Source: Nonomuraea montanisoli (lineage in GTDB: Bacteria > Actinomycetota > Actinomycetes > Streptosporangiales > Streptosporangiaceae). Taken from it: 64,000 bases of DNA. This document shows, one piece after another, positions 50,334 through 57,385 of this stretch (its first letter is position 1; each line of letters starts with the position of its first letter). Below the pieces are notes generated by a model. It was not told the DNA's origin and did not search any database. It saw only the letters and a list, made by a program, of their open reading frames with translations. Both the position numbers and the translations under genes were made by a program. Where the stretch lies: the NCBI RefSeq assembly GCF_013363975.1, contig NZ_JABWGN010000010.1, forward strand, positions 62,001-126,000, written 5' to 3'.

Positions 50334-50423
50334 CGAACCGAGTAGGTGCGCACAACAAAAACGCAGTAGCTGCCAGTCCCGATGTTCCTGCCTTCGGGCA
50401 TAGACCAACGGAAGGATCATGGT

Positions 50424-51560
50424 GTGCTGCTCCGGTACACCTTCCGCCTCTACCCGACCGCCAGTCAGCACGTCGCGCTGGCTCGGACGTTCGGATGCGC
50501 GCGGACGGTCTTCAACGACGGGCTGCGCATGCGACGCGAAGCACATATCAACGGCCTGCCGTATGTCTCGGACGGCGACCTGTCTAAGCGCGTCATCACG
50601 CAGGCGAAGAAGGCCCCGGAACGCGCCTGGCTGTGCGAGGTGTCTGCGGTGGTGTTGCAGCAGGCGCTGGCGGACCTGAACACCGCCTACCGCAACTTTT
50701 TCGCCTCCCTGTCCGGCAAGCGCAAAGGGCCGAAGATGGCCGCCCCTCGGTTCCGGTCGAGGAAGGACTCCCGGCAAGCGATTAGGTTCACCAGGAACGC
50801 CCGGTTCGCCGTCACGACGGGTGGCAAGCTGCGCCTACCGAAGATCGGGGACGTGCCAGTACGCTGGTCGCGGCCTCTGCCGTCCGAACCATCCTCGGTG
50901 ACGGTCATCAAGGACGCGGCCGGGCGCTACTTCGCATCGTTTGTGGTCGAGACCGCCGCTGCCCCGCTGCCGCAGACGACCGGCGAGGTCGGCATAGACC
51001 TGGGCCTCACGCGTTTCGCGGTGCTGTCGGACGGGCGGAAGATCGGCTCTCCGCGTTTCCTACGCCGCGCGGAGAAGAAGCTGAAGAAGGCACAAAAAGC
51101 TCTCAGCCGCACGACCAAGGGCAGCAACAACCGGAGCAAGGCCCGGGTGAAGGTGGCCCGCGCACACGCCCGGGTGGCCGACGCCCGCCGCGACTTCACG
51201 CACAAGCTCTCCACGCAGATCATCCGTGAGAATCAAACGGTGGTCATGGAGGACTTGTGCGTCAGGGGTCTGGCCCGCACTCGGCTGGCGAAGTCCGTGC
51301 ACGATGCGGGCTGGGCGATGTTCACCGGCATGCTTGAAAGCAAGGCCAAACGGTACGGCCGCACCCTCGTGCGTGTGGATCGCTGGTTCCCCTCCTCGAA
51401 GTTATGCTCGGCCTGCGGGGCGCTGGCCGAGGCGATGCCGCTCGACGTGCGGTCGTGGGCCTGCCTGTGCGGGGCCGTGCACGACCGCGATGTGAACGCG
51501 GCGATCAACATTCTGGCCGCCGGGCGGGCGGACAGCCTAAACGCCTGCGGAGGACTGTAA
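50424..51560 (+). CDS. tnpB: RNA-guided endonuclease TnpB (IS605 OrfB family)
   Basis: 378 residues from GTG 50424 (GGAAGG upstream). N-terminal RYTFRLYPTASQHVALARTF is the usual wedge/HTH start; the RuvC residues are Asp192 in EVGIDLGLTRFAVLSDG, Glu276 in VVMEDLCVRGLART and Asp356 in HDRDVNAAINILAAG. Zinc ribbon cysteines appear in SKLCSACG and WACLCG. All three catalytic acids are present, so the nuclease looks intact. TnpB cuts DNA at sites chosen by an omega-RNA transcribed from the element's 3' end, next to a short motif. Typical size for actinobacterial TnpB. Confidence 0.93.
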   Translation: MLLRYTFRLYPTASQHVALARTFGCARTVFNDGLRMRREAHINGLPYVSDGDLSKRVITQAKKAPERAWLCEVSAVVLQQALADLNTAYRNFFASLSGKRKGPKMAAPRFRSRKDSRQAIRFTRNARFAVTTGGKLRLPKIGDVPVRWSRPLPSEPSSVTVIKDAAGRYFASFVVETAAAPLPQTTGEVGIDLGLTRFAVLSDGRKIGSPRFLRRAEKKLKKAQKALSRTTKGSNNRSKARVKVARAHARVADARRDFTHKLSTQIIRENQTVVMEDLCVRGLARTRLAKSVHDAGWAMFTGMLESKAKRYGRTLVRVDRWFPSSKLCSACGALAEAMPLDVRSWACLCGAVHDRDVNAAINILAAGRADSLNACGGL

Positions 51561-51807: not shown

Positions 51808-51890
51808 TTGGCTGTGCCGTAAAGAAAGAAAAAGCAGTTGGCTGTGCCGTGAAGGAAGAAAAAGCAGTTGGCTGTGCCGTGAAGGAAGAA
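51808..51890. repeat. Three tandem 30-bp repeats
   Basis: Unit TTGGCTGTGCCGTGAAGGAA plus GAAAAAGCAG, at 51808, 51838 and 51868; the third is truncated after 23 bases. Purine-rich and unlike flanking DNA. Together with 51671-51807 this leaves no gene between the TnpB element and the PbpA homologue. Confidence 0.85.
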
Positions 51891-51907: not shown

Positions 51908-53320
51908 CTACGGCAGCGCGGCGCGGAGGATGGCGCGGGCAAGGGGGGCGGCCGCGGACGGTGTGGTGGACTCCAGCACCACCCCCACCGCCACCTCCGG
52001 CGCGTCCGCCGGGGCGAAGGCCGTGCAGGCCGACGGGCCGTGGCCCGACGTCGTCGTCTTGGCCGCCACCTCCATCCCCGGCAGCGCCACCCCGGCCGCC
52101 GGGCCGCCCGGCACCGTGGTCGTCGTCATCAGGGCCGCGAGCTGCCCCGCCGGCTGCGGCGGCATGGCCGTCCGGTACGGCGCCGGTTCGGCGCGGTCCG
52201 TGGTGGACCCGTCCGGCAGCCGCACCTCCTCCACCAGGTAGGGCCGCATCAGCAGCCCCCCGTTGGCCACCGCCGCCGACAGCATGGCGAGCATCAGCGG
52301 GCTCGCCCGGACCTCGTCGCGGCCGATCGCCGACAGCGCCGCGCGCGACTGGTCGAGGTCGCCCGGGTACGTGCCGGTCCTGGCCTGGAGCGGGAGCGCG
52401 AGGTCGTCGGCGTTGAAGCCGAACGCCTCCGCCTGGTCGCGCAGCAGGTCCGGGCCGAGCTGGAGGCCGAGGTTGGCGAGCGCGGTGTCGCAGGAGAGCT
52501 GGAAGGCGTAGGCCAGCGGCGGCCGCCCGTCGCCGCAGGGCCGCCCGGCCGCGGCGGTCAGGAAGGCGGGCGGCCCCGGCAGCGGCAGCCGGGCCGGCGC
52601 GCCGACCCGCGAGGCGACCGTGTACTCCCCCGAGCCGAGCGCGGCCGCCGTGGTGACCAGCTCGAAGACGGCCCCCGGCGGGTAGGCGCGGTGCAGGGCC
52701 CGGTCGAGCAGCGGCCGGCGCGGGTCGCCGCGCAGCCGCCGGTCCGTGGCGGCCTCCTCGGTCGGGTCGCCGGGCGCGTAGGCGGCCGGGTCGTAGGACG
52801 GGTAGCTGACCAGCGCGAGGACCGCGCCGGTCGCCGGGTCGAGCGCCACCGCGGCGCCCGGCCGGCCCGTGGCCTCCAGCGCCTCGTACGCGGCCCGCTG
52901 CACCGGCTCCCTGATCGTCAGCCGGACGTCGGCGCCCCCGTAGGCGCGATCCTCGACCAGGGCCCGCATGCGCACCTTCGGGTCGCTGCCCGACAGGACG
53001 GCGTCGCGCGCCCTCTCGACGCCGGTGGCCCGCCGGAGCGACACGTGGCCGGTGACGTGCGCGTACATCTCGCCGTACGGATAGACCCGCAGGTGACCGT
53101 ACGGCTCGGCGTCCGCGCGGCGGCTGGTGGCGACGACCGCGCCCTCGTGGGTGATGATGTCGCCGCGGGGCCGGCCGAGCTTGGCGAGCAGCACCCGCTG
53201 GTCGCGCGGGTCGCCCTCCAGGTCGCTCCGCCCGAACGCCTGCAGATAGGTGAGGTTGGCCAGCAGCGAGAACAGCAGCGCGGCGCAGGCCAGGCTGGCG
53301 CGCCGCAGCGGGATGTTCAT
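51908..53320 (-). CDS. PbpA-like penicillin-binding protein homologue lacking catalytic motifs
   Basis: 470 residues from ATG 53320, MNIPLRRASLACAALLFSLL forming the single membrane anchor, as in PbpA. The dimerisation domain (NLTYLQAF...DPRDQRVLLAKLGRPRG, YPYGEMYAHVTGH) and transpeptidase fold (AAVALDPATGAVLALVSYPS, RAYPPGAVFELVTTAAALGS, LSCDTALANLGLQLG, SAIGRDEVRASPLMLAMLSA, VANGGLLMRPYL) are all recognisable. But S-x-x-K reads A-V-F-E (217-220), S-x-N reads S-C-D (276-278) and K-T-G reads K-T-T (421-423). It therefore cannot acylate and should not bind penicillin. No frameshift or stop is present, so it seems maintained as a structural or regulatory pseudoenzyme. The nearby rodA/pbpA/pknB cluster is absent. 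Confidence 0.88.
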   Translation of the reverse strand: MNIPLRRASLACAALLFSLLANLTYLQAFGRSDLEGDPRDQRVLLAKLGRPRGDIITHEGAVVATSRRADAEPYGHLRVYPYGEMYAHVTGHVSLRRATGVERARDAVLSGSDPKVRMRALVEDRAYGGADVRLTIREPVQRAAYEALEATGRPGAAVALDPATGAVLALVSYPSYDPAAYAPGDPTEEAATDRRLRGDPRRPLLDRALHRAYPPGAVFELVTTAAALGSGEYTVASRVGAPARLPLPGPPAFLTAAAGRPCGDGRPPLAYAFQLSCDTALANLGLQLGPDLLRDQAEAFGFNADDLALPLQARTGTYPGDLDQSRAALSAIGRDEVRASPLMLAMLSAAVANGGLLMRPYLVEEVRLPDGSTTDRAEPAPYRTAMPPQPAGQLAALMTTTTVPGGPAAGVALPGMEVAAKTTTSGHGPSACTAFAPADAPEVAVGVVLESTTPSAAAPLARAILRAALP

Positions 53321-53380
53321 GCGTCTCGCCCCGGGCCCGGCCATGGCTTCTGGTCTAGCAGCCACGGCCCCAAGGGCGGG

Positions 53381-53740
53381 CTAGAGGACGCTGCGGTAGT
53401 AGGAAATCTTGTGGTTGATGTAGCGCTGGCGTTCGGCGAGGTTGGCGATCTGCGCCTGCACGCGGCGGTCGTGCTCCTCCAGGACCCGGATGCGGTCGGC
53501 GATCGTGTGCTCGCCCGCCCGCACCAGCTCGGCGAAGCGCAGCATCTCGGCGATCGGCATGCCCGTGTCGCGCAGGCAGCGGATCATGCCGAGCCAGCTC
53601 AGGTCCTCCTCGCTGAAGCGGCGCTGACCGGCCGCGTTGCGTTCGACGGGCTCCAGGAGGCCGATCTTCTCGTAGTAGCGCAGGGTGTCGAGGGTGAAGC
53701 CGGTCTCCTCGACCGCTTCGGCCGGCGTGTAGACGGTCAC
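53381..53740 (-). CDS. MerR-family regulator
   Basis: 119 residues. Winged helix VYTPAEAVEETGFTLDTLRY followed by YEKIGLLEPVERNAAGQRRF, then SWLGMIRCLRDTGMPIAEML and a coiled dimerisation helix. No metal-binding Cys cluster, so it belongs to the AdhR/NmlR-like group that senses aldehydes or electrophiles. GTG 53740 coincides with the predicted transcription start, so it may be leaderless. Divergent from the aldo/keto reductase; both promoters carry its operator. Confidence 0.9.
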   Translation of the reverse strand: MTVYTPAEAVEETGFTLDTLRYYEKIGLLEPVERNAAGQRRFSEEDLSWLGMIRCLRDTGMPIAEMLRFAELVRAGEHTIADRIRVLEEHDRRVQAQIANLAERQRYINHKISYYRSVL

Positions 53741-53756
53741 GCGGCCCAGGATCTCA

Positions 53757-53814: not shown

Positions 53815-53830
53815 CCGGACAGTCATGACC

Positions 53831-54766
53831 ATGACGACTGGACTGAACCTCGTGCTCGGCACCATCCCGTTCGGCACCGCGGTCAGCGAGGAGGACTCCT
53901 TCGCGCTGCTCGACCGCTTCTTCGAGGCGGGCGGGCGGATGCTGGACACGTCCAACAACTACCCGTTCTGGATGGAGGGCCGCACGGGTGACGAGAGCGA
54001 GCTGACGCTGGGCGCGTGGATGGCGGCCCGCGGCAACCGTGACGAGGTCTTCGTGAGCACGAAGGTGGGCGCCCGGCCCACGGTGCCGGGTGACACCACG
54101 CTGGACTCGGCCGAAGGGCTGTCGGCGGCGGCCGTCGCGCGGGGCGTCGAGGGCAGTCTGCGCCGCCTGCGCACCGACCGGATCGACCTGTACTGGTCGC
54201 ACATCGAGGACCGGTCCGTGCCGCTGGAGGAGACGCTCGGGGCGTTCGGCGAGCTGGCCGCGCGGGGCCTGATCCGCGAGCTGGGCGCCAGCAACATGCC
54301 GGCCTGGCGGCTGGAGCGGGCGCGCGCCATGTCGGCCGCGCACGGCTGGGTCCGCTGCACGTACGCGCAGCTCCGCCACACCTACCTGCGGCCGCGCCCG
54401 TTCACGCGGCTGGCGGAGGGCGGCCACCAGCTCGCCACCGACGACATGCTGGACTACGTGCGCTCGGAGCCGGACCTGACGCTGTGGGCGTACAACACGC
54501 TCATGTCCGGCCGCTACACCCGCCCGGACCGGCCGCTGCCGGAGAGCTACGACCACCCCGGCACGGACCGGCGGCTGGCCACGCTGCGCGAGGTGGCGGC
54601 GGAGCTGGGCGTGACCGTCAACCAGGTGGTGCTGGCCTGGCTGACGGCCGACGGGCACGTGCCGATCGTCGGGGTGTCCACGGCCGCCCAGCTCGACGAG
54701 GCGATCGGGGCGGCGGAGGTCAAGCTGGACGACGACGTCCGCGCCCGGCTCGACGCCGCCTGCTAG
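53831..54766 (+). CDS. Aldo/keto reductase
   Basis: 311 residues. LGTIPFGTAVSEEDSFALLD, DTSNNYPFWMEGRTGDESE (Asp and Tyr of the tetrad), VFVSTKVGARP (Lys), IDLYWSHIEDRSVPLEETLG (His) and the NADPH segment LTLWAYNTLMSGRYTRPDRP. It reduces aldehydes or ketones in the cytosol. I start at ATG 53831 because the mapped promoter would place the mRNA start there (leaderless); ATG 53825, two codons earlier, is equally open. Control by the divergent MerR protein suggests aldehyde detoxification. Confidence 0.9.
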   Translation: MTTGLNLVLGTIPFGTAVSEEDSFALLDRFFEAGGRMLDTSNNYPFWMEGRTGDESELTLGAWMAARGNRDEVFVSTKVGARPTVPGDTTLDSAEGLSAAAVARGVEGSLRRLRTDRIDLYWSHIEDRSVPLEETLGAFGELAARGLIRELGASNMPAWRLERARAMSAAHGWVRCTYAQLRHTYLRPRPFTRLAEGGHQLATDDMLDYVRSEPDLTLWAYNTLMSGRYTRPDRPLPESYDHPGTDRRLATLREVAAELGVTVNQVVLAWLTADGHVPIVGVSTAAQLDEAIGAAEVKLDDDVRARLDAAC

Positions 54767-56488: not shown

Positions 56489-57385
56489 TCAGAAGACCGA
56501 CACGTGGACGTGGTCGTAGTGGTTGGCGGTGACGCCGCCCCGGTCGGACATGGGGTCCCAGCCGCCGCCCGACCGGATGTCGTAGTAGCGCTGCTTCCAG
56601 ATGATGTACATGACGCCGATCTTCGACCCGTTCTGGATCAGCCACTCCGCCAGCGCGTCGCCGCGCTCCTCGTCGGCCCCGCTGGCGGCGCGGCCGCCGC
56701 TGGACATCATGAAGTCGCAGGCCCGGCCCTTGCCGTGCTCGCCCGGGTCGCCGGGGCGCAGGCAGCCGACCCCGTACGGCATGGGGAAGTTCGCCATGAT
56801 GGCGGCCCGGACCGCGATCATGCGCGGCGTGAGGCCCTCGGCGCCGCCGGGCTGCTGGAAGCCGTACTTGGCGAGCAGGCGCTCGATGTCGCGGCGCTTG
56901 CCCTGCATCACCTTGATCTCGCGCTTGAGCTTGTCCACCTTGTCGTCGGCCGCGACCTCGGCCTTCTTGGCGTCCTCGATGAGCTTCTCGACCTGGCGGA
57001 CCCGGCCGGCGCGCTCCGCGGCGATGTAGCTCATGTTCGCCGCCTGGGCGAGCGCCGTCGACGGGTCGCCGTCGTAGCCCAGCAGCCCGACGCCGTCGAG
57101 GGGGCCCATGACGTACGTGTTGCGGGCGATCGCGGCCACGTCCGCCCTGGCGCGGGCGAGCCGGGCCTTCAGGGCGCCCGAGGTCTTGACGGCCCTGCTC
57201 ACCTGGAGCTTGATCTCCTCCAGGCTCTGGATCTGGCCGCGGTAGCGCTGGTTCAGCTCCTGCGCCTGCTTGGTGAGTTTGCGAAGCTCGGCGGGGTTGG
57301 GGGCGGCCGTCGCGGCCTGCGGCAGGGGGAGTAAGAGCAGGCCGGAGAGAAGGACGGCCAACAGGGCGACGCGACCGACCATCAC
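56489..57385 (-). CDS. Secreted coiled-coil protein with ARB_07466-like C-terminal domain
   Basis: 298 residues. Signal peptide (VALLAVLLSGLLLLPLPQAA, cleaved near ATA), then two coiled-coil segments at about 32-75 and 130-170 separated by a Gly/Asp-rich turn. The C-terminal domain (about 185-298) has GVGCLRPGDPGEHGKGRACD and the final VTANHYDHVHVSVF with conserved His/Asp, resembling metal-site domains of cell-wall-associated proteins; overall layout resembles NlpC/P60 proteins with an RipA-like coiled coil but lacks their Cys-His. GTG 57385 follows GGGAGG. Likely acts at the cell wall; enzymatic role unproven. Confidence 0.8.
   Translation of the reverse strand: MMVGRVALLAVLLSGLLLLPLPQAATAAPNPAELRKLTKQAQELNQRYRGQIQSLEEIKLQVSRAVKTSGALKARLARARADVAAIARNTYVMGPLDGVGLLGYDGDPSTALAQAANMSYIAAERAGRVRQVEKLIEDAKKAEVAADDKVDKLKREIKVMQGKRRDIERLLAKYGFQQPGGAEGLTPRMIAVRAAIMANFPMPYGVGCLRPGDPGEHGKGRACDFMMSSGGRAASGADEERGDALAEWLIQNGSKIGVMYIIWKQRYYDIRSGGGWDPMSDRGGVTANHYDHVHVSVF

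Follow-up and report, generated by a model that had tools for sequence, protein, structure and literature searches.

Class B PBPs (bPBPs) work together with SEDS polymerases, and in SEDS-bPBP complexes the SEDS partner is contacted by the anchor and the pedestal of the bPBP. The pedestal also contacts regulators such as MreC (PMC10257715). PbpA of Mycobacterium tuberculosis (MtPbpA; 3lo7, 3un7, 3upn) is the closest solved structure to the protein described here. Its catalytic motifs STFK, SCN and KTG are intact and, according to the titles of structures 3upn, 3upo and 3upp, it forms acyl-enzymes with β-lactams. A bPBP can also be of use without its chemistry: the S309A variant of Bacillus subtilis PBP2B retains a non-catalytic structural role, catalysis being supplied by another PBP (PMC5656894), and PBP3 of Clostridioides difficile is an auxiliary bPBP that promotes asymmetric division/septal synthesis independently of its own catalysis (PMC12713402). 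Finally, class A PBPs without SxxK are reported from Streptomyces (PMC6273383).

The window, that is, the whole stretch of 64,000 nucleotides of Nonomuraea montanisoli DNA that was analysed, contains a gene, pbpA2, whose product resembles MtPbpA in fold and domain order but lacks all three of its motifs. PBP2B S309A was made in the laboratory from an enzyme that is essential and normally active, whereas pbpA2 is naturally inactive by motif and dispensable. Similarly, C. difficile PBP3 belongs to a Firmicute, is induced in sporulation and had its catalysis removed experimentally, while the loss in pbpA2 is natural. The Streptomyces proteins are, like pbpA2, natural and from an actinomycete; unlike it, they are class A and bifunctional and mostly keep SxN and KTG (PMC6273383). 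Pseudoenzymes and the PBP fold are already known, and the Streptomyces class A PBPs constitute the nearest report; our searches of the open-access literature did not turn up any class B PBP that is inactive by nature and kept by selection throughout a genus.

A PbpA paralogue at a separate locus

The gene pbpA2 (51908..53344, minus strand) encodes a PbpA-type class B PBP paralogue of 478 aa plus stop, which its motifs mark as catalytically dead. Its start is the ATG at 53344, eight codons 5' of the internal Met used for the reading 51908-53320 (MAGPGARR-MNIPLRR). We place it there because orthologues retain a MAGPRARR-like N-terminus and because, in most of them, Ile, Leu, Val or Phe codons occupy the position of the internal Met.

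The protein chain begins with a predicted membrane anchor helix (53234..53329, minus; model residues 6-37), visible as a hydrophobic stretch and in the AlphaFold secondary structure. The pedestal, or dimerisation domain, PBP_dimer_2 (52955..53167, minus; residues 52-122 of the 470-aa reading, P0002) follows with 54.6 bits for PF21922, and the transpeptidase domain (51926..52858, minus; residues 155-465 of P0002) with 112.6 bits for PF00905. PF00905 with an N-terminal PF21922 and a predicted anchor is the domain composition of a PbpA-type class B PBP. The AlphaFold model (pLDDT 89.7, pTM 0.86) matches MtPbpA with a Z of 54 and an rmsd of 1.8 over 422 residues, at 41% identity over aligned residues.

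The catalytic motifs of the class, on the other hand, are all replaced. In residue numbers of P0002, the SxxK position reads AVFE (217-220; 52661..52672, minus), with YPPG retained just before it; the SxN position reads SCD (276-278; 52487..52495, minus) and the KTG position KTT (421-423; 52052..52060, minus). SxxK acyltransferases deprived of the nucleophile, the general base and residues on the oxyanion side are not expected to perform acyl transfer or to bind β-lactams covalently. With its serine gone, the pbpA2 protein is not expected to bind penicillin covalently either. Two cysteines by the active site, Cys262 and Cys277, never vary: they are present in every orthologue compared, whether its motifs are lost or intact, and in the canonical outgroups. 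In MtPbpA, the equivalent pair forms a disulfide.

A separate, intact PbpA (P0003) is encoded in the same genome on another contig (G000:C9:135037-136497), immediately downstream of RodA. It has STFK, SCN and KTG, shares its Pfam domains and the anchor and pedestal core with the pbpA2 product, and is about 36% identical to it. A KTT seen in canonical PbpA proved to be an artefact of tblastn gapping, the whole protein reading KTGTAE. Canonical PbpA is found in 55/55 Nonomuraea genomes. pbpA2 is not adjacent to RodA; in almost every genome it is found in a MerR/AKR locus. No SEDS partner gene lies beside it, the three SEDS genes of the genome all being elsewhere. The preliminary description, made from the DNA letters, is thus accurate in its structural part: the three motifs are altered exactly as it stated in an open frame, the anchor, dimerisation region and fold are kept, as attested by both Pfam domains and the confident MtPbpA-like model, and the gene is outside the usual division gene cluster, the true PbpA being elsewhere, beside RodA.

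Directly upstream of pbpA2 we find a gene for a MerR-family regulator (53381..53742, minus; PF13411; GTG start assumed), followed by a divergent aldo/keto reductase gene (53825..54766, plus; PF00248). The same-strand MerR gene is directly upstream in nearly all orthologue loci and is a constant neighbour across genera; synteny with the divergent aldo/keto reductase holds in most. It follows from this shared setting that the pbpA2 locus is ancestral, has been passed on vertically and does not belong to the division cluster.

The sequence TAGACC, 13-8 bases upstream of the ATG (53352..53357, minus), is conserved across genera as TAGACC or TAAACC and could be a -10 element. Its distance to the ATG is 13 bases in most Nonomuraea and about 27-38 in most Streptosporangium-type relatives. 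The pbpA2 mRNA is possibly leaderless in Nonomuraea. Between the element and the ATG, Nonomuraea genes have no clear Shine-Dalgarno, and most Streptosporangium-type relatives have a GGGGAGGGG-like site.

On its other side, directly past the stop codon, pbpA2 is flanked by a 30-bp tandem unit (51808-51890; 2.8 copies, 96% matches) and then by an IS605-type TnpB gene (50382-51560; OrfB_IS605, Cas12f1-like TNB). One locus of another genus (L145) has a 78% identical TnpB at a near-equal distance from pbpA2 (+3004 vs +2932), and nearly all other loci are devoid of it. Further away, an ORF of 298 aa with a signal-peptide-like beginning and no Pfam match (56489-57385, minus) is conserved near many pbpA2 loci.

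Graded motif loss across Nonomuraea

Orthologues of pbpA2 occur in Nonomuraea, where the frame is uninterrupted in 51/55 genomes, and also in Streptosporangium, Sinosporangium, Acrocarpospora and others. The nearest species by protein identity are N. rhodomycinica, at 95-96%, and N. roseoviolacea, at 93%. The triple loss AVFE/SCD/KTT is identical in two sister species of the window species. Of the 51 uninterrupted Nonomuraea copies, 46 carry a change in one motif or more, 15 have lost all three and five are fully intact; near KTG these counts are approximate, the alignment being gappy there in a few sequences.

Beyond Nonomuraea, only two orthologues depart from intact motifs. One of them, from genome G081 (AAFQ/SCG, KTG lost), branches within the Nonomuraea clade. 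The other is Streptosporangium violaceochromogenes, an independent loss with SAFE and SCD in which KTG is kept.

The earliest losses on the tree fall close to the root of the main Nonomuraea clade and concern KTG and the Asn of SxN. The SxxK motif was lost subsequently in 12-14 separate events, in which Ser became A, P or G and Lys became E, R, T or G. Among the 181 positions that are near-invariant in intact orthologues, loss affects 6/7 catalytic positions versus 25/174 others (Fisher p = 1e-4), far beyond chance, and 128/181 are still conserved after motif loss. The window protein marks the extreme of an erosion that is graded and runs through the genus, and is not an isolated case.

Could the altered cleft retain another, weak catalytic activity, for instance that of a hydrolase or esterase, through different residues? 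Ser276 of SxN is retained in 41/44 motif-loss sequences and Ser217 in 29/44, which speaks for such an activity. However, the three species with AVFE/SCD/KTT (hereafter the window trio) have Ala and Glu in place of Ser217 and Lys220, and species differ in the residues lost, with no shared replacement constellation among them. We consider this reading very improbable.

Purifying selection and dispensability

With GY94 codon models and F3x4 frequencies, omega is 0.112 (bootstrap 0.103-0.127) for 44 motif-loss sequences. The 21 intact orthologues are slightly below, at 0.087 (0.078-0.096), and 50 canonical PbpA genes give 0.085 (0.071-0.112). For the window trio we obtained 0.052 (0.030-0.076), a value matched by the canonical PbpA genes of these species at 0.052 (0.027-0.082), and omega = 1 is rejected for the trio with a 2dlnL of 179. 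As all three species share AVFE/SCD/KTT, they diverged after the loss. The dead transpeptidase domain of the trio, taken alone, also has an omega of 0.052 and is as constrained as the anchor. Six other eroded groups range from 0.07 to 0.13.

Some iqtree bootstrap replicates of the trio returned an omega of 1.0, apparently through failures of the optimiser; the interval given above comes from a refit with purpose-written codon-model code, which reached the same log-likelihood. Counting by NG86 gives 0.24-0.34 for the trio versus 0.17-0.25 for canonical PbpA, all well below 1: the absolute omega depends on the treatment of codon frequencies, while the trio and canonical PbpA stay roughly on a par.

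Essential catalytic residues have thus been lost and purifying selection has acted afterwards, as in a pseudoenzyme. This is what the preliminary description had proposed, and the low dN/dS among orthologues sharing the loss, in the motif-loss clade as in the trio, supports it. The same description took orthologues with intact motifs as a sign of recent decay, and this objection holds by half. Sister lineages do carry intact copies, but the motifs were lost long ago and repeatedly, and purifying selection has acted since, so that decay is not the explanation. A recent pseudogene or a sequencing error is rejected on account of the identical triple loss in two other species and of an omega far below 1.

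The gene is nonetheless dispensable. It is absent from three genomes (G016, G037 and G048), each with an intact MerR-AKR locus; G016 and G037 are sisters on the PbpA tree, which implies at least two deletions. In G026, which belongs to the nearest sister lineage of the window clade, the second half of pbpA2 is in another frame from about codon 255 (locus L225). This draft genome is fragmented, and the frameshift could be an assembly error as well as a pseudogene. Given three absences and one frameshifted copy, selection on pbpA2 is weak or conditional; its function is conditional or replaceable, useful and not essential.

The missing and frameshifted copies, together with motif losses that are graded and independent, are also what one would expect of a slow decay, in which canonical PbpA or L,D-transpeptidation came to be enough, pbpA2 became redundant and the intact frames represent a lag. 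Against it stand omega values of 0.05-0.13 in groups whose divergence came after the loss, a transpeptidase domain constrained like the anchor, open frames in all but four genomes, and the unchanged Cys pair and fold positions. Slow decay appears quite unlikely in general, and for the window clade, where omega is well below 1, it is largely refuted. Altogether, the motif loss, its recurrence, the later constraint, the conserved locus and the intact PbpA elsewhere are shown, and the pbpA2 product is best read as a maintained pseudoenzyme.

Possible roles of the pbpA2 product

The pbpA2 product would most likely be a partner without catalytic function in a septal or SEDS-bPBP complex. We favour such an auxiliary partner because the anchor, the pedestal and the outer fold are kept and because PBP2B S309A and C. 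difficile PBP3 provide two precedents. pbpA2 would have arisen as a PbpA paralogue in the Streptosporangium/Nonomuraea lineage, with its catalytic motifs present at first. Transpeptidase chemistry would then have been lost early in most Nonomuraea, through KTG and the Asn of SxN and later, repeatedly, through the Ser or Lys of SxxK, the fold, membrane anchor, pedestal and Cys pair staying under purifying selection. Today the anchor and pedestal would serve to attach the protein to a SEDS polymerase, either RodA or FtsW, or to the true bPBP. In this way it would modulate or scaffold the synthesis of polar, sporulation or septal wall, and cross-linking would fall to canonical PbpA and other transpeptidases. 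We found no feature in the pbpA2 sequence favouring RodA over FtsW, or any partner. The position of all three SEDS genes away from pbpA2, its missing and frameshifted copies and an omega slightly above that of intact orthologues also count against this reading. As the best explanation overall, an ex-active PbpA paralogue that is now an auxiliary, non-catalytic SEDS/bPBP partner has, in our estimate, a probability of about one half. The odds are likewise even that pbpA2 represents a genus-wide natural class B pseudo-PBP, whose dedicated task is to regulate or scaffold wall synthesis by SEDS-bPBP complexes without catalysis and which has repeatedly shed its motifs under strong selection for its function.

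Of the roles suggested in the preliminary description (scaffold, regulator of a true PBP or muropeptide sensor), the sequence separates none from the others, and the sensor looks the least likely of the three, as the protein has no cytoplasmic or other signalling domain. Such a sensor would bind muropeptides, lipid II or β-lactams non-covalently in the eroded cleft and signal to a partner, perhaps linked to MerR. The retention of YPPG and the Cys pair around the cleft and the constancy of the MerR neighbour are compatible with this. However, the predicted cytoplasmic tail consists of a few residues ahead of the anchor helix, and the residues that drift in the motif-loss group are those of the cleft itself (S, K, N, KTG, T424 and E426), which argues against a conserved ligand. 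We regard a ligand sensor as quite unlikely.

Dead paralogues commonly regulate live ones, and pbpA2 might accordingly be a dominant brake: it would heterodimerise with canonical PbpA or compete for RodA, limiting elongation at certain stages. It belongs to the PbpA family and has the corresponding anchor and pedestal, but the two proteins share only about 36% identity, and we hold this role to be unlikely.

The auxiliary, non-catalytic partner that we favour bears on how class B PBPs are understood. For jobs of these proteins beyond cross-linking, laboratory mutants are suggestive and natural evidence is scarce. Here, evolution has repeated the separation of function within one genus, removing catalysis and retaining the rest. 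Intact, half-eroded and fully eroded orthologues share one locus in related species, so that a non-catalytic role of a bPBP becomes directly testable. In these actinomycetes, PbpA-type annotations and counts of β-lactam targets extend to proteins for which penicillin binding is not expected.
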